A program made the translations under genes and the position numbers. From IMG/VR virus record IMGVR_UViG_3300020578_000146, positions 1 to 45,188 of that record: 45,188 nt of DNA. One strand, 5' to 3'. Numbering within the stretch: position 1 is the first letter of the stretch; each line of letters starts with the position of its first letter. This DNA comes from a virus. The notes under the pieces are model-generated. The model saw only the letters and a program-made list of their open reading frames with translations, did no database searches and had not been told where the DNA came from. Shown here one piece after another: positions 505 to 31,383 of this stretch.

Positions 505-1077
505 ATGAAAACTATTGACGTTGAAATCCGTGGTAACACTCCGCTCTTGATTCACAAGTTTGCGGAACAGTCAGAACAAGGCAAGGCAACTCGCCGTGTC
601 ATGGTGGATAGTATGAATCCGCGTGACGAAGCGACGAAGAACGCTTACATCGCGCAAGATGGGACGTATTACTTTAATGCGTTTTCTGTTCCTGCAACGA
701 TGGCGAATGCCGGTGTGAACCATAAAATGCGTGGTTCACGTAAGACTCTAAAATTTGTTGTGCCGTCTGCGGTACGCATGGAGACTGACACCGTAACGAT
801 CTTGGACGAAGACGGTAAACCCGCGAAGAATTTTGAAGTAGACAGCCGTCCGGTGACTATCCCGGCAACGAAAGGGCGCGTGATGCGATATCGCCCCCGC
901 TTTGATCAGTGGGGCGCGAAGTTCCGTCTGTTGCTCAATGATCAGATGCTGTCTTCAGAGGACGCACATCGCTTGCTTAATGAAGCAGGTGAAAGCATGG
1001 GTATCGGTGACTTTAGGCCAGAGAAACGCGGTCCCTTTGGGACTTTTAGAGTGACGAAGTTTGAAGAGATAAAGTGA
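505..1077 (+). CDS. Phage protein, possible RAMP/Cas7-like fold
   Basis: A 190-aa protein of no certain family. It opens with a strand-like segment (KTIDVEIRGNTPLLIHKF) and ends with GIGDFRPEKRGPFGTFRV. A beta-rich start together with a Gly-rich loop of the form GxGxxRPxxxGPFGxF near the C terminus recalls RAMP-fold proteins (Cas7/Cas5 relatives, type IV Csf2-like), which bind RNA. This is resemblance by eye only, and no other CRISPR component is present. An RBS (AGAGGTAG) lies before the ATG. The stop codon runs directly into the first pentamer of the NNGGY array, so the gene and array are physically continuous. An ordinary phage early protein of unknown role is equally possible. Confidence 0.8.
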   Translation: MKTIDVEIRGNTPLLIHKFAEQSEQGKATRRVMVDSMNPRDEATKNAYIAQDGTYYFNAFSVPATMANAGVNHKMRGSRKTLKFVVPSAVRMETDTVTILDEDGKPAKNFEVDSRPVTIPATKGRVMRYRPRFDQWGAKFRLLLNDQMLSSEDAHRLLNEAGESMGIGDFRPEKRGPFGTFRVTKFEEIK

Positions 1078-1229
1078 GGCGAGGTCTGGTAGGGCTTGGT
1101 CAGGCGAGGTCTGGTCGGGTCGGGTGAGGCGCGGCATGGTTTGGCGGGGCAGGGTAGGGTCAGGCGTGGTGAGGTGAGGCAAGGCGGGGCCCGGTGCGGT
1201 GGGGTTGGGTTTGGTGAGGTAAGGTCTGG

Positions 1230-1250
1230 TTTCTCTGGCGAGAAATTTTT
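1230..1250 (+). terminator. Array hairpin copy 1, terminator-like
   Basis: The arms TTTCTC (1230-1235) and GAGAAA (1240-1245) pair perfectly around the loop TGGC. They are followed by TTTTT (1246-1250) and AT, after which the pentamers resume. The stem is short and AU-rich, so it would be a weak intrinsic terminator or pause site on the + strand. It is identical in stem and loop to the three copies downstream. Confidence 0.65.
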
Positions 1251-1381
1251 ATGCGGTGGGGTCGGGCGAGGTTTGGCATGGTGAGGTGGGGTTTGGTTTG
1301 GTGAGGTCTGGCGTGGTCCTGCGGGGTGGGGTCGGGCGCGGTAGGGCGGGGTTGGGTCCGGTGAGGTACGGTAAGGTATGG

Positions 1382-1402
1382 TTTCTCTGGCGAGAAATTT
1401 TT
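1382..1402 (+). terminator. Array hairpin copy 2, terminator-like
   Basis: Stem arms at 1382-1387 and 1392-1397, loop TGGC, and TTTTT at 1398-1402. As in copy 1, it is followed by AT and then GCGGT as the next pentamer. The distance from copy 1 is 152 bp. Confidence 0.65.
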
Positions 1403-1523
1403 ATGCGGTGCGGTGGGGCACGGTCCGGCAAGGTCTGGCTTGGTGGGGTGGGGTGTGGTCCGGTCCGGTGGGGTTGGGCGGGGTACGGTAGGGTGGGGTT
1501 CGGTGAGGTTCGGTATGGTTTGG

Positions 1524-1543
1524 TTTCTCTGGCGAGAAATTTT
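1524..1543 (+). terminator. Array hairpin copy 3, terminator-like
   Basis: Stem arms at 1524-1529 and 1534-1539 with loop TGGC. The T run is one base shorter than in the other copies (TTTT, 1540-1543). The pentamer right after it (GGAGT) is one of the two irregular units, so this copy has decayed slightly. It lies 142 bp after copy 2. Confidence 0.6.
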
Positions 1544-1614
1544 ATGGAGTGCGGTCTGGTAAGGCAAGGCTAGGTGTGGCATGGCTAGGCGCGGTCTGGT
1601 GAGGTGTGGTTTGG

Positions 1615-1635
1615 TTTCTCTGGCGAGAAATTTTT
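1615..1635 (+). terminator. Array hairpin copy 4, terminator-like
   Basis: Stem arms at 1615-1620 and 1625-1630, loop TGGC, TTTTT at 1631-1635, then AT and the pentamer AAGGT. It lies 91 bp after copy 3. The last 21 pentamers follow it, up to the RBS of the next gene. Confidence 0.65.
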
Positions 1636-1756
1636 ATAAGGTAGGGCAAGGTGGGGTTAGGTGAGGTTCGGCTAGGTTGGGTAGGGCGAGGTGGGGTAGG
1701 GTTAGGCAAGGTTGGGTTTGGTCCGGTATGGTTTGGTTTGGTTTTTGAGGTAGCAA

Positions 1757-1993
1757 ATGAGTGGTAAGCCAAAGAATGAATTTGCGTTCCCTCAATTAGA
1801 AGGAGAACGTCTTAAATGGTGGGGTCATGGCATGACTTTGCGGGATTACTTTGCAGCCAAGGCGATGCAAGGTTACATCATCTCGCACGGAGTTATCCTG
1901 CGCCCCGAAGAAGTAGCAAGAATGTCTTACGCGATGAGCGATGCTCTACTTAAAGAACGCGAAGATACAGCACTGAAGGGGTCATCTAAATGA
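1757..1993 (+). CDS. Small phage protein (TLRDYFAAKAMQG type)
   Basis: A 78-aa protein whose core (GMTLRDYFAAKAMQG, residues 25-39) is a motif I recognise from many small hypothetical proteins of tailed phages. The rest is helical, with a VARMSYAMSDALLKER segment near the end. No enzymatic motif is seen. The RBS (GAGGTAG, 1747-1753) follows directly after the last NNGGY pentamer. The stop overlaps the ATG of the methyltransferase gene (ATGA), so the two are translationally coupled. The function is unknown. Confidence 0.85.
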   Translation: MSGKPKNEFAFPQLEGERLKWWGHGMTLRDYFAAKAMQGYIISHGVILRPEEVARMSYAMSDALLKEREDTALKGSSK

Positions 1994-2628
1994 ATCCAAT
2001 TTTAATTGGTCGCAAGCGATTGAGTGATATTCTCTGGGGCATCATTGATGAGAAGGTGGGCGACTTCCCGTACGAAAAGATTGAGAAGATTGTTGAAGAT
2101 CAGCAAGCCCTGCGGTCGCAAGCCGAGTACAAAACTGGGTCTGTGCCGATTGACGATGCGTTTGAGTTGTACAAGGTCGTCAATTTCTTAAAGCCTAATA
2201 CCATTGCCGAGGTAGGAACGTTTATTGGCGTATCTACCCATGTGATGAACTTGGCGATGGAGCGTTTGGTGGACATTTACACCTGTGATCACTCCAACGA
2301 TATTGATCTAGATGCGCCGAACATTTTTCAGTATCGAAAGAAGCCTTCACACGAGATGTTTGCAGACATGGCTGAGAAGAAGGTAAGGGTCGATCTGGTT
2401 TATCTCGACGGGCGTCTAAGTGACAGGGACATCGAACCGTTGTCTAAGATCATTCACGATGACACCGTGTTTGTGTTTGACGACTTCGAGGGAATTGAGA
2501 AAGGTGTTGTCAATGCCATGATGGTGGAGTCTTTCAGTAGAGCGTTGATCTATCCACGTGAAGGCAGGAAGACCGCAATCTCTATTCCGTTTTCGCTCCT
2601 TCAGATTGTGCCGCAGGAGGCCACATGA
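1990..2628 (+). CDS. Class I SAM-dependent methyltransferase
   Basis: A 212-aa protein with a Rossmann methyltransferase layout. Motif I is AEVGTFIGVSTHVMNLA (about residues 73-89), an acidic strand end follows in YTCDHSNDIDL, and then VDLVYLDGRLSD and VFVFDDFEG. The EVGTFIGxST form is typical of the Methyltransf_24 group, whose members modify small molecules, sugars or macromolecules. The substrate cannot be read from the sequence. It is the first gene of the modification module (1,990-8,242), and the downstream glycosyltransferases make a sugar or glycan substrate plausible, which is inference. An ATGA overlap joins it to the gene before and also to the 38-aa ORF after it. Confidence 0.8.
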   Translation: MNPILIGRKRLSDILWGIIDEKVGDFPYEKIEKIVEDQQALRSQAEYKTGSVPIDDAFELYKVVNFLKPNTIAEVGTFIGVSTHVMNLAMERLVDIYTCDHSNDIDLDAPNIFQYRKKPSHEMFADMAEKKVRVDLVYLDGRLSDRDIEPLSKIIHDDTVFVFDDFEGIEKGVVNAMMVESFSRALIYPREGRKTAISIPFSLLQIVPQEAT

Positions 2629-2741
2629 TTACGTGGTTTAAAAGAGTCTTACGTGATTGGCGATGGCGCAGATTGAACGAATGGGCGCACGTGCCTAGTC
2701 CTGAATGGAAGGCCAAACGTGGTGGGAGTGTGTACTGGTGA
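2625..2741 (+). CDS. Small basic Trp-rich protein, 38 aa
   Basis: A 38-codon ORF starting MITWFKRVLRDWRWRR. It has a strong RBS (AGGAGG, 2615-2620) and an ATGA overlap with the methyltransferase stop. Its own stop overlaps a GTG (GTGA at 2738-2741) that is the likely start of the next gene. It is rich in Trp and Arg and has no recognisable domain. Its role may be mainly translational coupling, or it may be a small amphipathic peptide. The RBS and the overlaps at both ends are the evidence that it is real. Confidence 0.6.
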   Translation: MITWFKRVLRDWRWRRLNEWAHVPSPEWKAKRGGSVYW

Positions 2742-4675
2742 AAGTTCCAGAGATACCCAAACTCAATACCCCGGTGCATGACGGTATTGCTGCGAATGAG
2801 AAGACGTTGCCACAGATCGCGGAAGCGTTCTTCAAGCGTGGCCTAGATTTATCTAACAAGGAAAATAAATTTGATGAGGCGGCGAACGTTTTCAGCAACG
2901 TGATTGATTGCGTTGGGTTTGTTACGTCATCTGTGGTACAGCGAGGGCGGTGTCACTGGGAAATGCGACGGTGGCATCTCGCCAGAAAAGATTTTAATTT
3001 TGCCGCAACGATTGACCCCATGAGCGCAGACATCAAGTGGACTAAAGCACTACTTGATTTGCAGCAGCACGACTTTAAAAACGGGTGGCAAGGCTATGAA
3101 GCCCGATGGGGTAGTACTACTTTCAAATCAGCCCGATTGCATACCACGCGACCACAGTGGGAGCCGGGGATGGAGTGCGATCACTTAATCGTATGGCAGG
3201 AGCAAGGGGTGGGTGATCAGATCATATACTCTACGTTCATACCATTGATCAAGAAGTTAGTTAAAAGACTTACTGTGATGGTCGATTTCCGTCTTGTTGA
3301 GATGTATAAAAGGTCTTTTCCTGACGTTGAATTTATCGGCCCAACTGATCGATGTAAGTTGGGGAAGAAGTCTGCTCATTTACCTATGGGCAGCATATCG
3401 CAGCACTTCATTAAGCGGCTGTCTGATATACCCGAAAAAATATCGAAGTCTTATTTCAAACCTGACCTTGAGAAGCGTGACTTACTCCGCAAGGCGGCGG
3501 CCTTTACGGATGATGACTTCGTTATAGGCATTTCATGGATAAGTAAGGCCAACGTAATTGGTCCGCACAAAAGTATCTCTCTTGAAGAACTCTTACCATT
3601 CTTCGAGATCAAAGGTGTTAAGTTTGTCAATCTTCAATACTCAGATGTCTTGCCTGAGATCGATAAGTTTGAGAAAAAGTACAGCAAGAAGATCCATACG
3701 TTCAACGCCATAAATAACTTTATGGATTTGGATGGACTTGCTTCTGTCATAGCGGGCTGCGATGTTGTTGTATCTGTTAGTAACGCAACAGTTCATCTGG
3801 CAGCGGCAATGGGGAAGCCGGTGTTTTTACTTGATGCAAATAAGTTGTTCTTTTGGAACCACAGAGTAGGGCGAGAAAGTTTGTGGTATCCCTCAGTGCG
3901 TATTTACCCCAAGGCAAACGTTATCGCACCGTGGACTACTGCGGTAGAAGCCGCCGTTAAAGATCTTAAAGTGTATCGACAGCAGACAGCCGGATTACAT
4001 GTGGCTGAGCCTTCAGAAACATTCGTGTTCTTCCATGTTGGTGATGATGTTTCTTACCCACAAAAGTTGGTGAGTTCACTGCGAATCTCTAACCCTACGG
4101 CGAACATAGTAATGTGTACAGACAAGGATACGCCAGAGGTTTTGGGCGTGAATCGCCGGGTCGAAGATGATGTGGATAGAAGCAAGTTGATGACAGAGCG
4201 GTTACGCATGTACGCCGCTGCGAAGGTCGATCATCCTGCTATTTATCTTGATACCGACATGATCGTTACTCAGAAGGTCAGCCCTACTGAGATGATCGAC
4301 GCTAACGATATTGTGCTATGCCAAAGAAGTTTTGAACGAGATGTTGAGTTTAACCCGCATCAACGCGGACTAGACTTCTCGGAGTACAACGGAAAGACAT
4401 TGATGGAAGTCTATCCGTACCTTGCTTGTACGATAGTGACTAAGCACCACTCAGTATGGGGAAGGGCGTTAGAAATCTTGAATGCGATGGATGAGAAGTT
4501 CCACGTGTGGTACGGGGATCAGGAAGCATTGAAGGTACTTGCCTCAGAACTACGTGCTTCAACGGTGGACGAAAGCGACTACGGTTGTTTGCCAGAAGAA
4601 ATGCAAGCAGATAAGAACCCGAAAATCCTTCACTTCAAAGGCTTTGATCGCAAATACCTTTTGGATGATTTATGA
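2738..4675 (+). CDS. TPR + GT9-like + GT8-like glycosyltransferase fusion
   Basis: About 645 aa from the GTG at 2738, chosen because it has GGGAG at 2724-2728 and a GTGA overlap with the ORF before it. An ATG at 2705 in the same frame would add 11 residues. Domains run in order. Residues ~20-135 are TPR-like helices ending in NGWQGYEARW, a motif usual in TPR-GT9 proteins. Residues ~145-400 are a GT9/heptosyltransferase-like part with GVGDQIIYS (~155) and NATVHLAAAMGKPVFLL (~350). Residues ~425-645 are a second transferase with LDTDMIV (~504, a DxD metal/sugar-nucleotide site) and a final HFKGF. It probably moves sugars from nucleotide donors. The acceptor is unknown. Confidence 0.8.
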   Translation: MKVPEIPKLNTPVHDGIAANEKTLPQIAEAFFKRGLDLSNKENKFDEAANVFSNVIDCVGFVTSSVVQRGRCHWEMRRWHLARKDFNFAATIDPMSADIKWTKALLDLQQHDFKNGWQGYEARWGSTTFKSARLHTTRPQWEPGMECDHLIVWQEQGVGDQIIYSTFIPLIKKLVKRLTVMVDFRLVEMYKRSFPDVEFIGPTDRCKLGKKSAHLPMGSISQHFIKRLSDIPEKISKSYFKPDLEKRDLLRKAAAFTDDDFVIGISWISKANVIGPHKSISLEELLPFFEIKGVKFVNLQYSDVLPEIDKFEKKYSKKIHTFNAINNFMDLDGLASVIAGCDVVVSVSNATVHLAAAMGKPVFLLDANKLFFWNHRVGRESLWYPSVRIYPKANVIAPWTTAVEAAVKDLKVYRQQTAGLHVAEPSETFVFFHVGDDVSYPQKLVSSLRISNPTANIVMCTDKDTPEVLGVNRRVEDDVDRSKLMTERLRMYAAAKVDHPAIYLDTDMIVTQKVSPTEMIDANDIVLCQRSFERDVEFNPHQRGLDFSEYNGKTLMEVYPYLACTIVTKHHSVWGRALEILNAMDEKFHVWYGDQEALKVLASELRASTVDESDYGCLPEEMQADKNPKILHFKGFDRKYLLDDL

Positions 4676-5340
4676 AAGTATTTATTGGTTGGGACAGCCG
4701 CGAGGATGTGGCGTATCAAGTCTGCCGGGAGTCTTTGGCGCGGAACTCATCCGTGTTCTTGGACATCAAGCCGCTGAAGCAGACTGAACTGCGTGAGCGG
4801 AACTTGTACTGGCGGGAGCATGACCCGCTGTCGTCTACAGAGTTTTCCTTTACCCGTTTCCTTGTGCCGCATTTGTGCAATTACGAGGGGTGGGCGGTGT
4901 TCATGGACTGTGATTTTCTTTGGAGAGGTGATATCGCTGCGTTACAGAACTACATGGATCCATATTACGGGGTGCGTGTGGTCAAGCATGATTACAAGCC
5001 GAAAGAATTAACGAAGATGGACGGCAGGGTTCAGCACCAGTATCCACGCAAAAACTGGAGCAGCATGATCCTGTGGAACTGTGGGCATCCGCTACTCAAG
5101 ACACTGACCCCCGAGGTAGTGAATCGCGAGACTGGGATGCACCTGCATCAGTTACGGTTCCTGTGGGACGCGACCATCGGTGACTTGCCCATCACCTACA
5201 ACTATTTGGAAGGTTGGTACACGAAGGATGACTGCCTGAACCCACAAGCCGTTCACTTCACTCGCGGCGGGCCTTGGTTCAAAGACTGGGGCAACGTCGA
5301 GTATGCAGAAGAATGGATGGCGATAGCCAAGGAGATTTAA
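4672..5340 (+). CDS. GT8-like glycosyltransferase
   Basis: A 222-aa protein. The N terminus MKVFIGWDSRED is the first strand of a GT-A fold. SSTEFSFTRFLVPHLCNYEG leads to the DxD-type motif FMDCDFLWRGDI near residue 80. The C-terminal half has NWSSMILWNCGHP and AVHFTRGGPWF, as in GT8-like enzymes that bind a nucleotide sugar and Mn2+. It is shorter than GT8 family members with extra domains, but the catalytic core looks complete. The ATG overlaps the stop of the fusion gene (ATGA), so both transferases are likely made together. The donor sugar and target are not readable. Confidence 0.8.
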   Translation: MKVFIGWDSREDVAYQVCRESLARNSSVFLDIKPLKQTELRERNLYWREHDPLSSTEFSFTRFLVPHLCNYEGWAVFMDCDFLWRGDIAALQNYMDPYYGVRVVKHDYKPKELTKMDGRVQHQYPRKNWSSMILWNCGHPLLKTLTPEVVNRETGMHLHQLRFLWDATIGDLPITYNYLEGWYTKDDCLNPQAVHFTRGGPWFKDWGNVEYAEEWMAIAKEI

Positions 5341-5586
5341 ATGGATTACGAAGAAGAAGTTTATCTTGTGAATCCTGACGGATCATCTCCCGGTAAGAAA
5401 GAAATTACGTGGGTGAAGATTGGCGAGGACGGTAGTTTGGAATACATTAACTGGAAAACAATTGACGAGTATTCAAAAGAGTTTGATGAGTTTGGCCCGA
5501 GCGGACGACGTACGCAAACTCACATAATTTGCAAATTGCTAACGCTTATCCGTGACGAGACACGTAAAGAATTGGAGATCAAATGA
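5341..5586 (+). CDS. Small acidic hypothetical protein
   Basis: An 81-aa protein with no domain I recognise. It is acidic in its first half (MDYEEEVYLVNPDGSS) and has an EIxWVKIGEDGSLEYINW stretch that looks beta-stranded. Its end is helical (ICKLLTLIRDETRKELE). The RBS AAGGAG lies at the end of the preceding gene and the ATG follows that gene's stop directly. The stop overlaps the ATG of the oxygenase downstream. Because it sits between a glycosyltransferase and an oxygenase, it may be an accessory of the module, which is inference only. Confidence 0.75.
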   Translation: MDYEEEVYLVNPDGSSPGKKEITWVKIGEDGSLEYINWKTIDEYSKEFDEFGPSGRRTQTHIICKLLTLIRDETRKELEIK

Positions 5587-6224
5587 TGAAGAAAACGTTG
5601 CACAATGAACTTCTTGAGAAACACCCGTCTTTGAAGTACGAAATTGGAAACGATTTTGTTGGCGTATTTGACGGAATTTTCTCTGAGAATTTATGCAAGA
5701 CGGCTATTCATGAATTTGAAGTGAGGGACAAGATCGATAAAACTTACAACCGCATACAGGGATTTGATAGACAGCCCCACGTAGTTAGCGATTCGTCCAT
5801 AGATTTTAGAGGCCATGCATTCTACGAAGACTTAGGTTTTAGATATGTCTCCGATGAATTTTCTAATGTTTTCTGGTCTATTGCGTATCCGTTATACAGA
5901 GAAAAGTATTCAATTCTAAACACTTATGCTCGTCATGAAATTTTCACTGTCAAACTTCAAAGGACTAAACCCGGCGAGGGGTATCACGTTTGGCATTCTG
6001 AAGATATGGCCCGGCATGAGTGTACCCGAGTAGCGGTATTTATTCTTTACCTGAATGATATAGACGAAGGCGGCGAAACAGAATTTTTGTACTTAAATAA
6101 AAGGATTAAACCTGAAGCGGGCAGGTTGATCATTTGGCCTGCCGGGTTTACGCACACGCACAGGGGGAATCCTCCTATCGGTGATAAAGAGAAGTACATC
6201 CTTACGGGGTGGGTGGAACTTTAA
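5583..6224 (+). CDS. 2OG-Fe(II) oxygenase (prolyl hydroxylase type)
   Basis: A 213-aa protein with the double-stranded beta-helix pattern of 2-oxoglutarate/Fe(II) dioxygenases. The iron ligands are readable as YHVWHSED (near residues 134-141) and a distal His in FTHTHRGN (near 190). A Lys/Trp segment (KYILTGWVEL) at the end would bind 2-oxoglutarate. DEGGETEFLYLNKRIKPEAGRL is the typical strand pair between the ligands. Members hydroxylate proteins, nucleotides or small molecules, and phage copies are frequent in marine phages. The region looks more AT-rich than the glycosyltransferases before it, which hints at separate acquisition. Confidence 0.85.
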   Translation: MMKKTLHNELLEKHPSLKYEIGNDFVGVFDGIFSENLCKTAIHEFEVRDKIDKTYNRIQGFDRQPHVVSDSSIDFRGHAFYEDLGFRYVSDEFSNVFWSIAYPLYREKYSILNTYARHEIFTVKLQRTKPGEGYHVWHSEDMARHECTRVAVFILYLNDIDEGGETEFLYLNKRIKPEAGRLIIWPAGFTHTHRGNPPIGDKEKYILTGWVEL

Positions 6225-6928
6225 TGTTTTTATTTAAATCTAAAAAAGTGGTAGTGGATTGTTTTACTCGTGAGCCGGTAGTGGCTCAAAACTATCCTAT
6301 TAAAAAATCTTTTAGCTACGTGCCGGAGTGGTGGAGGAATTTAGAGCAATGCGTACATCACCGTACGCAGTATGCGATTGCCCGTCCTTCGCCTACCATG
6401 AAAACATGTACAGGGTTTATAAATCTATTCCAAAAAACTTGGACGATACCCCTATGGACTGACTTCATTTTACAAACTAGAAGCGACGGGAATTACGATT
6501 ACCTGTTTCCTAATCCTGTTGATCCTTCGCATATGGATAGCCACCCAAGCTATCAACACCAAGGCGGTATGCGCGATAGAATCCACGTAAAAATAACTCC
6601 TCCTTGGATTTTATGGGAAAAAACAGGAATTCATTTTTTATTTTTTGGGGCAGACTGGACGTTAATGGATGAACTGCCATCTGTCAGAGTAGTCCCCGGC
6701 ATAGTTAATTACAGAGACCAACATGGTGCTGCTGTAAACTTTTTTGTGGATAAAAAAGACGCGAGATTAGAATTCCGGGCTGGTACGCCAATGGTTTATT
6801 TGGCCCCAATGACCGATAAAAAAGTTGAATTTAAAGTCCAAGTAGTGAACGAGCAAGAATGGAGTAGGTTAGAGAAATACAAAGTCGTTTTCCTAAATAA
6901 ATTTATTATCCGAGGAAAGTGGAAGTGA
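6224..6928 (+). CDS. Unknown phage protein with PEWWRNL motif
   Basis: About 234 aa. The ATG at 6224 overlaps the stop of the oxygenase (TAATG); an upstream in-frame GTG at 6209 is less likely. Visible features are FSYVPEWWRNLEQ near the N terminus, a central MKTCTGFINLFQKTWTIPLW with a paired Cys/Trp pattern, and a beta-rich C terminus (MVYLAPMTDKKVEFKVQVV). I recall similar unnamed proteins in T4-like cyanophages and other marine phages but cannot name the family. There is no signal peptide, membrane segment or metal site. It lies between an oxygenase and a sulfotransferase, so it may act in the same modification. The local base composition is AT-rich. Confidence 0.75.
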   Translation: MFLFKSKKVVVDCFTREPVVAQNYPIKKSFSYVPEWWRNLEQCVHHRTQYAIARPSPTMKTCTGFINLFQKTWTIPLWTDFILQTRSDGNYDYLFPNPVDPSHMDSHPSYQHQGGMRDRIHVKITPPWILWEKTGIHFLFFGADWTLMDELPSVRVVPGIVNYRDQHGAAVNFFVDKKDARLEFRAGTPMVYLAPMTDKKVEFKVQVVNEQEWSRLEKYKVVFLNKFIIRGKWK

Positions 6929-7710
6929 ACAAATATCACTTCATTTCTGGATTGCCAAGATCTGGGTCAACACTACTTGTAAGTATTCTGAATCAAAACC
7001 CAAAGTTTTATGCTGAGATATCGAACCCGTTGGCTGATTTTGTCAGCGCCGTAGCAAGCGCCTATACCCACAGGACTGCAACGCATAAGATCATCTGTCC
7101 ACCAGACAGAGTTGCTGACACTGTGAAGGGTATGGTGGATGGTTACTACTCTTTTACGGACAAACCAGTGGTGTTCAACACAGATCGTTCGTGGACAAGA
7201 ACTCCAGAATACTTGGCTGCTGTTTATCCTGACTTCAAACTAATATGTACTGTCAGAGACTACGCTGATGTGTTGAATTCTTTTGAATACCTCTACAAAA
7301 AGCGAGGGATTCGCGAAGACTCGCTCTATGGCGAACGTGCTTTAAACGTCTACACAAGAACAGTGGCGCTAGATACTGGGTATGTTCGTAATTCGTATGA
7401 CTCTTTAAAAGAGTGTTACTACGGCCCTTACCGGAAGCATCTTCTTCTGGTGGAGTACCAAGACTTAGTTACTGCTCCGCATTCCACTATGAAGGAAGTC
7501 TATGACTTCATCGGTGAACCGTACTTTGAGCATGACTTCAACGATGTGGAGTACTCATTTCCTGAGTATGATCATGCGACTAATTTTCCAAACTTACACA
7601 CAGTAAGGAAGAAACTGGAAGCCCATGTAAACAACACGGTTCTTCCTCCCGATCTTTACTATCGATTTAAAGGTATGGAATTTTGGAGACAGCGTAATGA
7701 ACATACATAA
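6925..7710 (+). CDS. Sulfotransferase family protein
   Basis: About 261 aa from the GTG at 6925, which overlaps the preceding stop (GTGA) and has GAGGAAAG at 6912-6919. An in-frame GTG at 6919 is the alternative. The N-terminal ISGLPRSGSTLL (residues ~7-18) is the PAPS 5'-phosphosulfate loop of sulfotransferases. CTVRDYADVLNSFEYL (~110-125) is the 3'-phosphate site with its conserved Arg and Ser. LLLVEYQDLVTAPHSTMKEVYDFIGEPY is the usual late family motif. The enzyme would move sulfate from PAPS to a hydroxyl or amine, for example on a sugar. With glycosyltransferases in the same operon, a sulfated glycan is a reasonable guess. Confidence 0.85.
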   Translation: MNKYHFISGLPRSGSTLLVSILNQNPKFYAEISNPLADFVSAVASAYTHRTATHKIICPPDRVADTVKGMVDGYYSFTDKPVVFNTDRSWTRTPEYLAAVYPDFKLICTVRDYADVLNSFEYLYKKRGIREDSLYGERALNVYTRTVALDTGYVRNSYDSLKECYYGPYRKHLLLVEYQDLVTAPHSTMKEVYDFIGEPYFEHDFNDVEYSFPEYDHATNFPNLHTVRKKLEAHVNNTVLPPDLYYRFKGMEFWRQRNEHT

Positions 7711-27366: not shown

Positions 27367-30300
27367 TTAACGGGGCAGGTATTTATCGGCATTAACGCGG
27401 GGAGCCTGCTTTTTCCTACCCGTCCGCGCTGCGCGAATCTGCGCCATCATCTTATACAACTTCTTTGCACCGGCTTCGGTCGAGCCATTACCAAGGTGCG
27501 ATACCACATCGGCAGGGATCACAAACTCCCCGTCTGCCAGAGCCGCCCTCTGGACACCTTTACCACGAATTACGGCAGGGATGTCATCAGACATACCGTC
27601 TCCTTCGCCTCGCAGGAGTTTACCACCTGCACGGTACTCAGGCATCGCGGCCATGCCGCCTCCGGCAAACCCGAAGTTATACCCGTCAGCCGGGTTCACA
27701 GCGGCACCCATACGTGGGTCACGGGTCAGAGAGGCAATACCGCCCGCCTGATACTTCTTCTTTTTAATCTTACCTTTTTTCACATAGCCTCCTGCTGCTG
27801 CGCCTTTTTCGTCATAGGCCCTTGGACATCGATCTGCGCTTGATGCGTAGATTGGGACTCCTCTATCTGTGTATCCACAGAATACCCGTCCTTCTCTGGG
27901 ACCCGGCGTGTCCTCCCACCATCCTACACAACGATCTTGGACCCAATCGTAGTAAGTACCAAAGCTACACTGCGGCATACCTCTAGTCCCACCGCCGCCA
28001 CCGCCCCCGCCCCCGCCGCCACCATCACCGTCACCGCCTTCGGGAATATTGATGCAATCTTCCGCGTAAATTGGAGTCACGCCATCGGCTTCATAACCTT
28101 TAAAGTCCGGCATGTACCCCGGAGGACACGACCCACTAGCAGTTTTAGGTGCACGAGACCTGCTCGGAGGTGGTGGGCTATCTTCGGGGCATGTGTTATT
28201 TGGATGATCAGTGGCTTTACTTCCGTCAACACACCTTTTTACTTGAATGTCGATAATTGGAACGCAGTAGAGAGGCCATTTAAGCCCCAACATTTTTAAG
28301 TAAACGTTCTCTCTTGTTCCTTGCGGACACAACGTAAAATCATCGCAACCAAAAATTGGATGTGGTTCAGTACCATCTGGACATTTAGGTTTTGGCGGTT
28401 TGCCAGTCGGATATCTGCACTTGCCCGTAATCGGGTCACGGATCATATCCTCGCCGTCAGGACCCATTTCCTGCGCGCAGGTGTTTGAACCTTCTGGTTT
28501 GTTACATCCGTAGGATTCAACTGGTTTAGAACCGTCCGCACATCTGCCATTTCCGCAGATGCCTTCTTCGTTAGGCTCCTTACCGTCAGGACATTTTTTA
28601 ACAACGTCGGTTATGTCTTCAAGACAGAACCCTGTCGGAGACTTGGTGTAGTCAGCAACATTACCGTCCGCACAGATTCTTGGCTTAGTGCAGCCGTAAT
28701 CAGGATCTGGGGTAGATCCGTCAGAACATTTTCTATTTTCTGGGCACTTACCGTTTTTATCTTTAGGCAAGCCATCTGGACATTTATCTTCAGGGCATTC
28801 CCCAAGCGCGTTAGGAGCAGAACCATCGTCGCAAGTTCTGGCTTTCATGCAGCCCCAAACAGGATCACGAGGCGACCCGTCTGGACACTTTTCTGGTTTT
28901 TTATCGCAACCATAGACAGGATCAGGATCTGATCCGTCTGGACACTTGTTGTCTTTCTTTTGACAGCCTAAATCAGGATCAGGTTTAGATCCGTCTGGGC
29001 ACTTGTCTCCGTCGCAAAATCCGTTTTTATCTGGAAGTTTTCCGTTAGAACAAAGTTTAAATTTGTTGCAACCAAAAACAGGATCAGGAAGAGATCCGTC
29101 TTCGCATCTTTCTCTTTTGTCACAACCATAGACAGGATCAGGATCTGATCCGTCTGGGCATTTACGGGTTGAGGGACAGTTCCCGTTAGCATCCGGTAGC
29201 GAACCATCGTCACATAGTTTTGGTCTGTCACAGCCGTAAACCGGATCTTTAGGCTTGCCATCAGCGCAAAGATTATCTTCAGGACATTCGCCGTTTGCGT
29301 TTGGCAGCGAGCCGTCATTACAACGTCTTGGTCTATCGCAACCTAAGACGGGATCTTTGGGTTTACCGTCTGGACATAAGTCTTCCGGACAGAATCCGTT
29401 TGCATCCGGGAGTGAACCGTCATTACACCGTTTCGGCCTATCACAGCCTAGGACAGGATCCTTGGGCTTACCGTCTGGGCACAAGTCTTCCGGACAGAAT
29501 CCGTTTGCATCCGGGAGTGAGCCATCGTCACAACGTCGCCCACGGTCACAACCGTACTCAGGATCAGGATCTGATCCGTCTGGGCATTTTCTAACAGGAC
29601 ACTTGCCCGTTACTGGATCTGGAAGCGATCCGTCTCCGCACAATACGGGTTTATCGCAGCCGTACCTAGCGTCTGGAATAGATCCGTCCGGGCATTTTTT
29701 AACGCAATTCCCGTTAGCATCGGGTAATGAACCATCCGCGCATTTTTTGATGCAATTGCCTGCGGAATCCGGTGCCGAACCATCTGGGCATTTAATTGCT
29801 CCGCACGGGTCTTGACCTGTTAAAAAATCTATTGGGTCATATTCCTCACCCGCACGAGCAGTACCTGCCGGACATCGTGGTTTAGGCGGTGGCGGGGGCG
29901 GCGGGGGAGGTGGAGGAGGCGGGACAACTTCTGGGTATTTAACTACGGGACCGTATTGAGTTTCTCCGCGAATCCCAGAAGTGTCGTAGTAATTCCCCAT
30001 ATCGACTGGCGATCTGCCAATCGGTGGGTTCAAAAGCGATCTATACCATTCAGCAAGGTTTTTATCGTAAGGTTTAAGAGAGGCAATACCTGTACCTACA
30101 CCGCGAGGCGTGGGTTGAGTAAGACCTGTGAGCGGATCGATTTCCCTTAAAGAAGAAGTGTCGCCCTGATCAGCGGTATTCTCCGTGGCGGGAAGGCCAC
30201 GGTACCAGTCAGTCAGGGCGGGAGCGAAAGGGCGCAGATCCTCGTAATACTTACGCCTCCTTTCTTCTTCGGTGTCTGTTACACCGCCTTCCGCAAAAGT

Positions 30301-31383
30301 TTCCTCGCCAGTATAAGTATCGACAGGAACTTCATAGCCGTTGTCTCGCACCCGCGACATCGGGAAATTAGGATTTGGACGCGGCACAATACCGCCCCCG
30401 GCCATCGAATAGCCCGATTCAGTTGGACGCGGACGATAAAACTCTAACGGTTCAGTTCTTCTTGGACTGGGTATGTTAGGTGGTGGCTGACCGGGTGGAG
30501 CCTGTCCCTGTTGGCCCTGCGGAGTAGCAGCAGGGTTCTGCGTATAGCCCGGATACTGCGTGGTGTAGCCCTGATCGGTATAACCCCCACCGATAAAGTA
30601 CGGCTGACCCGGTTCACCAAAGCGAGGGTTGACTTGCCCACGTGAAAACTGCACGTTTCGATACTGCGTTGGTTGCGGAGTCGGAATACCCGGTCGTTGA
30701 CCCGTTATTTTTTGTTCTGCTTTCTTAGCCGCATACATCATTATGGCGTCCATTATCGGGTCGCCTGACCGGAACAGTCCTCCTTGCCTTTGCTGCCCTT
30801 GCTGTGCAGTACCCGGCTGACCGCCGCCCAGTATGTTTCGTAAAGCATTTTCGATGCCGCTGGGTGAGCGCACAGTAGTTTGAGGTTTACCAATCGCAGC
30901 AGCAGGCAACCCCCCGTAGACGGTATTGGTTAAAACATCTTCGTCAGACATCCGCGCCAACTCATCAGGCGTTGGAGATTTAGTCGCCGTCGTTTTACCC
31001 ACCCCTTGACCCATAGCAGAAGTAATCCCGCCCAGAATTCTGGTTCCGGCGTAGGCTTTCATGCCCGCATCAAGACCCTTCTGCAAATCGCCCTTAATAG
31101 CGCCGTAGGCTGCGCCGGTTATTAGGGACGTAGTTAGGGGGTTTTGGAGGGCAGTGGTAGCAACAGTACTTATACCTCTGCCTATAGACCTCAAAAAATT
31201 AGAAAGAAAGTTTGCCTCGGGATAACCCGTTTCAGGATTGATCGGCAATTCCATTCCACGTGACCGTGCTAGTGCCTGAAGGCTTCGCACTTCGTCGGGC
31301 GTCATATGGACAAGAGTGCTATCTCCGCCGCGACCCTGCGCGGCTACAAGAGAAGCGACACCCTGCATCGGATACTGGTTCAT
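27367..31383 (-). CDS. Cys-repeat virion protein, 1338 aa
   Basis: Residues 1-~130 begin like internal proteins of marine podophages (LVHMTPDEVRSLQALARSRG, NPETGYPEANFLSNFLR, then hydrophobic helices). Gly/Pro/Gln-rich linkers and GGGIVPRPN follow, then a polyproline run (~490-503). Next come about 26 Cys units of the type CPDGSDPDPVYGC (~530-1065), then a Gly run. The C terminus (DGEFVIPADVVSHLGNGSTE, then KKLYKMMAQIRAARTG) is a motif I know from podovirus structural proteins. Its function is likely virion-internal or adhesive. The Cys array is an unusual insert. A GGGGGG RBS precedes the ATG. Confidence 0.75.
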   Translation of the reverse strand: MNQYPMQGVASLVAAQGRGGDSTLVHMTPDEVRSLQALARSRGMELPINPETGYPEANFLSNFLRSIGRGISTVATTALQNPLTTSLITGAAYGAIKGDLQKGLDAGMKAYAGTRILGGITSAMGQGVGKTTATKSPTPDELARMSDEDVLTNTVYGGLPAAAIGKPQTTVRSPSGIENALRNILGGGQPGTAQQGQQRQGGLFRSGDPIMDAIMMYAAKKAEQKITGQRPGIPTPQPTQYRNVQFSRGQVNPRFGEPGQPYFIGGGYTDQGYTTQYPGYTQNPAATPQGQQGQAPPGQPPPNIPSPRRTEPLEFYRPRPTESGYSMAGGGIVPRPNPNFPMSRVRDNGYEVPVDTYTGEETFAEGGVTDTEEERRRKYYEDLRPFAPALTDWYRGLPATENTADQGDTSSLREIDPLTGLTQPTPRGVGTGIASLKPYDKNLAEWYRSLLNPPIGRSPVDMGNYYDTSGIRGETQYGPVVKYPEVVPPPPPPPPPPPPPKPRCPAGTARAGEEYDPIDFLTGQDPCGAIKCPDGSAPDSAGNCIKKCADGSLPDANGNCVKKCPDGSIPDARYGCDKPVLCGDGSLPDPVTGKCPVRKCPDGSDPDPEYGCDRGRRCDDGSLPDANGFCPEDLCPDGKPKDPVLGCDRPKRCNDGSLPDANGFCPEDLCPDGKPKDPVLGCDRPRRCNDGSLPNANGECPEDNLCADGKPKDPVYGCDRPKLCDDGSLPDANGNCPSTRKCPDGSDPDPVYGCDKRERCEDGSLPDPVFGCNKFKLCSNGKLPDKNGFCDGDKCPDGSKPDPDLGCQKKDNKCPDGSDPDPVYGCDKKPEKCPDGSPRDPVWGCMKARTCDDGSAPNALGECPEDKCPDGLPKDKNGKCPENRKCSDGSTPDPDYGCTKPRICADGNVADYTKSPTGFCLEDITDVVKKCPDGKEPNEEGICGNGRCADGSKPVESYGCNKPEGSNTCAQEMGPDGEDMIRDPITGKCRYPTGKPPKPKCPDGTEPHPIFGCDDFTLCPQGTRENVYLKMLGLKWPLYCVPIIDIQVKRCVDGSKATDHPNNTCPEDSPPPPSRSRAPKTASGSCPPGYMPDFKGYEADGVTPIYAEDCINIPEGGDGDGGGGGGGGGGGGTRGMPQCSFGTYYDWVQDRCVGWWEDTPGPREGRVFCGYTDRGVPIYASSADRCPRAYDEKGAAAGGYVKKGKIKKKKYQAGGIASLTRDPRMGAAVNPADGYNFGFAGGGMAAMPEYRAGGKLLRGEGDGMSDDIPAVIRGKGVQRAALADGEFVIPADVVSHLGNGSTEAGAKKLYKMMAQIRAARTGRKKQAPRVNADKYLPR
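28190..29800 (-). repeat. Coding tandem repeat, about 26 Cys units
   Basis: Units of about 20 codons, each with two Cys framing DGS-type loops, for example KCPDGSDPDPVYGC, RCDDGSLPDANGFC and LCPDGKPKDPVLGC. Two unit types partly alternate (xCNDGSLPDANGFC with LCPDGKPKDPVLGC), which suggests growth by duplication of unit pairs. The Asp/Gly/Asn loops between Cys pairs recall the calcium-binding thrombospondin type 3 style, but homology is not shown. In the cytoplasm the Cys would be reduced; pairing would need an oxidising place. Confidence 0.9.

Follow-up and report, generated by a model that had tools for sequence, protein, structure and literature searches.

Positions 505-1742 of the window (the whole stretch of 45,188 nucleotides analysed here, IMG/VR virus record IMGVR_UViG_3300020578_000146) almost certainly constitute a phage-encoded VIPR (Viral Interference Programmable Repeat) locus, consisting of a vipr gene and a downstream array of up to five vrRNAs. 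This identification is made because the 190-aa product of the gene is homologous to the Vipr protein of Escherichia phage SUSP1 (PDB 36pp_D) and has a predicted RAMP fold. VIPR is a CRISPR-like system of RNA-guided DNA binding, described in a preprint of April 2026 (bioRxiv 2026.04.26.720920, PMC13142463); an earlier sequence-only reading of this DNA had not recognised the array as a described element, and on that point it is out of date. According to the preprint, VIPR pairs Vipr, which is a small RAMP protein, with vrRNAs made of alternating GGY and NN units followed by a tail; the vrRNAs load on Vipr, the NN bases read double-stranded DNA with one base skipped per unit, and the effect is repression of competing phages (PMC13142463). 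The kind of system is thus known; what is new here is the phage lineage, together with the unusual length of its guides. The virus record encodes DNA polymerase, helicase and virion genes, in keeping with the occurrence of VIPR mainly in phages and proviruses. VIPR is of wider interest as a proposed ancestor of CRISPR effectors that uses a different guide code.

The vipr gene (505-1077, + strand) encodes a protein of 190 aa, matching the RAMP homologue of about 20 kD that characterises VIPR, and its homology and predicted fold make it a predicted GGY/NN RNA binder. The protein matches phrog_4652 (E 1.7e-22) and, by blastp, SUSP1 Vipr (E 3e-13, about 24% identity); the entry 36pp_D, "SUSP1 Vipr protein", is matched at E 5.3e-8 by the single sequence and at E 4.5e-37 by a 50-member profile. 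No Pfam family is assigned to it, and NCBIfam and PADLOC gave no matches. A glycine-rich stretch, GxGDxRP...G, is conserved across 50 Viprs. The AlphaFold2 model (pLDDT 91.6) assigns the protein with high confidence to the CRISPR Csm3/Cas7 RAMP fold: the best 50 PDB chains listed by Foldseek all belong to CRISPR effectors, in most cases Csm but also type VII, Cmr and Cas7-11, with a best E of 1e-6 and a TM of about 0.5-0.6, a moderate value such as distant RAMPs would be expected to give. A genome scan also found remoter relatives in MAGs of Opitutaceae and Phycisphaerae, at 48-60% identity; three such MAG contigs (L177, L178 and L180) carry Vipr together with GGY tracts, and it may be that they come from phages and were placed in the bin of their host.

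GGY recurs at 5-base spacing throughout 1076-1742, with exactly 5 bases in 108 of 117 successive spacings. The sequence-only reading had described a single array with two exceptions; the period holds, but the region is divided into five tracts by four phase-shifting hairpins, and both these separators and the adjoining RAMP gene had been overlooked. Tract 1 (1076-1230, + strand like all the others, 31 strict NNGGY units) begins within the vipr stop codon (TGA, 1075-1077), so that array and vipr adjoin as in other VIPR systems. Tract 2 (1253-1382) has 26 units, of which 25 are strict, the deviant CCTGC at 1318-1322 standing between runs of 13 and 12 units and keeping both in phase; it is followed by tract 3 (1405-1524, 24 strict units), tract 4 (1551-1615, 13 strict units) and tract 5 (1638-1742, 21 strict units, without a hairpin tail). 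Strict units thus number 114 of 115 across tracts of 31, 26, 24, 13 and 21 units, and the strict runs are, in order, 31, 13, 12, 24, 13 and 21 units long. The period-5 pattern is genuine and far above chance: in 1000 dinucleotide-preserving shuffles the longest strict run averaged 2.6 units and never exceeded 6 (31 observed), and GGY pairs at +5 averaged 7.1 with a maximum of 18 (108 observed).

The bases between the GGY triplets are as variable as had been claimed, with all 16 NN dinucleotides in use and an entropy of 3.79 of 4 bits. NN identity between units at lags 1-12 is 0.03-0.13 where 0.08 is expected, indicating no copying from neighbours, which bears out the earlier statement that this is not a microsatellite and likewise excludes tandem duplication, because the variable bases are not common to the copies. 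Tandem Repeats Finder does report weak overlapping arrays of period 5-25, as an expanded simple repeat or a sequencing or assembly artefact might produce, but such an origin is refuted, its probability being negligible, since NN identity is at chance level, sister phages carry different arrays built by the same rule, and identical arrays are found in two other contigs with different sample numbers (L140 and L141). A coding repeat is excluded by the period of 5 and by the hairpins inside the array, no known RNA family matches (in Rfam, nothing in the window reached gathering score, hammerhead included), and a tRNA was considered and rejected. A TRAP-like pattern consists of GAG/UAG at 5-nt spacing; a TRAP-like reading was dropped after the adjoining RAMP gene had been identified.

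No sigma-70 promoter was found in a search of the + strand inside the array. Between them, vipr and tract 1 leave no space where a promoter could lie, and therefore vrRNA 1 is probably either processed out of the vipr transcript or transcribed from a start inside the gene. Tract 5 is followed by TTTTT and then by the ribosome-binding site of the next gene, the same end as in the array of a sister phage (L146).

Between the five tracts lie exact copies of TTTCTCTGGCGAGAAATTTT(T), four in all, at 1230, 1382, 1524 and 1615; each of them shifts the GGY phase and is part of the element. Tail 1 (1230-1250, + strand, as are the others) is predicted to fold as the hairpin TTTCTCTGGCGAGAAATTTTT, and the same hairpin is expected of the exact copies in tail 2 (1382-1402), tail 3 (1524-1543, with four T) and tail 4 (1615-1635); the predicted fold of TTTCTCTGGCGAGAAATTTT has an energy of -6.1 kcal/mol (z -2.65). 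The structured, invariable 3' tail of VIPR is therefore represented after tracts 1-4 by identical hairpins and is absent after tract 5; a pseudoknot of the SUSP1 type was not seen, the tail being a short hairpin. Arrays of sister phages have a second type of tail, TTTTTAGGGGGCAAAGAATTTTT, with a weak predicted fold (-0.7 kcal/mol). In the arrays of the window clade, the second base of the last unit before the tail is T in 21 of 24 tracts, so that this unit is probably part of the tail. Elsewhere, a VIPR array with at least 10 short tracts (L086, 2245-3394) has as its separator a repeated AAGGAATGGTTTAATGAATTTAAT-type element, unlike the hairpin of the window.

The association of such arrays with Vipr extends well beyond this phage. 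Viral contigs were scanned for the pattern (GGYNN)x12 with no use of protein information, giving at least 120 stretches in at least 116 array loci, and a Vipr HMM was built from the window clade and SUSP1. Among the matches listed, 84 of 116 array loci encode Vipr, nearly all on the strand of the array and most less than 150 bp away; several of the listed loci with no Vipr are true simple repeats of low NN entropy or are cut near the array. A plain regular expression applied to raw phage DNA thus reaches the Vipr family independently, which supports the connection of GGY/NN arrays with Vipr made in the preprint. At least one of the loci with no Vipr (L060, 3144-4261) has 74 GGY/NN units around a short gene that the HMM does not recognise as Vipr, and no Vipr match was found within the 5.3 kb examined of its 73-kb contig; its Vipr may be elsewhere on the contig, may act in trans, or may be too divergent. 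Long strict runs are not peculiar to the window clade: of 86 VIPR loci outside it, 25 have a run of more than 16 units, the longest having 42.

This association also bears on the proposal that the element acts as DNA, the G-rich strand favouring R-loops or G-quadruplexes and possibly a replication origin, or the GGY triplets marking sites on alternate DNA faces. Local GC skew is strong (0.49 at positions 1001-2000), but it is a direct product of the GGY units; RNA-style hairpins interrupt the period, and an origin would not predict a same-strand RAMP gene beside 84 of the 116 listed arrays. A DNA-level function is thus highly improbable, and neither the origin nor the alternate faces suggested at the outset found any support.

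Eighteen loci encode a Vipr whose matched part is 90-100% identical. L140 and L141 have the array of the window, whereas six others have further distinct arrays (L142, L144, L146, L149, L150 and L151) that differ in tract number, tract length and NN content while following the same rule. Where Vipr is 90-94% identical, sister phages have kept the GGY triplets, their phase and the tails and have changed the NN content. The selection on GGY spacing proposed from the sequence is upheld, and the comparison with related phages that had been recommended shows the phase rule intact. Modules of 8-11 units are common to several arrays in differing surroundings. In 34% of the units of these modules Y is not the same, as against 12% for N1 and 5% for N2, the Y difference expected of unrelated units being about 38% from the T:C ratio; the modules had been picked by NN similarity, and therefore the comparison was repeated with modules picked on N1 alone, in which N2 differs in 15% and Y in 28%. 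The direction is clear though the samples are small: NN content is preserved, whereas any pyrimidine will do at Y.

An RNA-binding platform or sponge, in which Vipr or a host protein would bind the GGY triplets of a transcript for regulation or storage and NN would hold no target information, would account for GGY and its spacing being the most constant feature and for the RNA-binding RAMP gene beside the array. It would leave unexplained the strong conservation of NN, with Y close to free, in the shared modules, which fits information in NN, and in SUSP1 a change of NN pairing is reported to abolish silencing (PMC13142463); such a platform is accordingly considered improbable. The platform put forward in the sequence-only reading nonetheless came close, in that GGY is most likely a scaffold for Vipr; where it departs from the VIPR interpretation is in treating as free the NN bases, which would carry information because NN is the guide.

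In the VIPR interpretation, the gene at 505-1077 would supply Vipr and the downstream array up to five vrRNAs with one NNGGY tract each, four of them closed by a short hairpin. On the model of SUSP1, Vipr subunits would oligomerise on the RNA, with the GGY positions most likely serving as the protein-binding scaffold; the NN pairs would base-pair with double-stranded DNA, one target base being skipped per unit; and binding would block transcription in genes of competing phages or satellites. What these genomes themselves show is the anatomy of the locus, the homology of Vipr and its predicted fold, the association of arrays with Vipr, the conservation of GGY and tails and the turnover of NN. 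The published work on SUSP1 makes it likely that the RNAs load on Vipr, that DNA is bound and read with a skip of 1 nt, and that the system acts against competitors.

The 21-31-unit tracts of this clade might tentatively be regarded as long compound guides, each being either a single guide that reads a target of as much as about 93 bp, or a fusion of two guides that share a tail and are assembled from swapped modules of 8-11 units; either version would extend the described vrRNA of 9-16 units. Possible signs of such swapping are the shared modules in different surroundings and the deviant units that stand close to some of the module joints. With its seven distinct arrays (that of the window and six from sister phages), its NN turnover, its longer tracts and its minimal tail, the lineage should help to show how guides are acquired, exchanged and terminated.

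Natural targets were sought in viral contigs by five scans for exact patterns with a 1-nt skip, one query being a module common to two sister arrays. Four of the five scans had no match, and the sole match (L176) was ascribed to chance, as only the 9 units of the query matched, with 26 of 62 bases overall. The absence of a target is weak evidence, because an exact scan needs a perfect match of 9-11 units and the presence of the enemy in the collection. All guides compared with the window and sister contigs at skips 0-2 gave nothing exceeding shuffled controls, so that targeting of the phage's own genome or of sister contigs is not detectable; one high score at skip 3 was an unmasked array edge. 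Against the collected array loci at skips 0-2 there were only isolated single matches of 17 of 18. The NN composition of 514 units fits codon positions 1-2 as the best phase of six, weakly (+8.9 bits over background), and if the skipped base is put at the codon wobble position, tract 1 translates into a protein-like peptide free of stops; peptides read from NN as codons, sense and antisense, had no tblastn matches in 50,697 phage records.

Upstream of vipr, and ending about 15 bp before it, is a gene (20-490, + strand) for a 156-aa protein with an HTH-like N-terminus (HTH_29, E 0.073, weak) and a DUF3310 domain (PF11753, E 1e-17). Its relatives are found in 10 of the compared Vipr loci, the window included, and are kept in sister phages, making it a possible candidate for a vap (accessory) gene. 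Directly 3' of the array (1743-1760 in the window) the genes vary among sister phages (L140-L151), and this end of the array looks like a variable junction. Accessory genes for a methyltransferase, a glycosyltransferase 9 with TPR, a 2OG-Fe(II) oxygenase and a sulfotransferase follow at 1990-7710, and 105-bp direct repeats (29291-29565, about 2.4 copies) lie within a 1338-aa ORF on the minus strand (27367-31383).

Class 1 CRISPR-Cas systems with Csm3/Cas7 RAMPs share with this locus the RAMP fold (predicted here) and variable segments between constant elements, but the window has one small RAMP, non-contiguous period-5 guides and 20-nt hairpin separators in place of direct repeats and contiguous spacers, and no cas genes were found among the window proteins searched; a class 1 CRISPR array was therefore rejected. 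The VIPR of SUSP1, assigned to type II (PMC13142463, KT454805), is similar in its homologous Vipr, its same-strand GGY/NN tracts beside vipr, its structured element after the tract and its phage origin. All tracts here are downstream of vipr, whereas in the SUSP1 genome (KT454805) two genes have one tract on their upstream side and three on their downstream side, in agreement with the preprint. The tail here is a hairpin of roughly 20 nt with a T-run, in contrast to the longer pseudoknotted tail of SUSP1, and the HTH-DUF3310 gene is upstream of vipr, whereas SUSP1 has an apparently different gene downstream of vipr. The tracts here have 13-31 units; the preprint reports 9-16 repeats per vrRNA for the SUSP1 and P. 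fulva clades, with no stated limit for all seven types (PMC13142463), and four of the five tracts (21-31 units) exceed that range, tract 4 having 13. Arrays with hammerhead ribozymes, or staggered with overlapping vrRNAs, are also mentioned there (PMC13142463) and are likewise multi-guide GGY/NN arrays, though the array here is without a hammerhead or other Rfam family at gathering score. Relative to the main text of the preprint, the 21-31-unit tracts, the two interchangeable short tails, the last tract without a hairpin and the HTH-DUF3310 neighbour are additional features of this lineage, of which the long tracts could be a staggered form and may in that case already be covered by the staggered arrays of the preprint.
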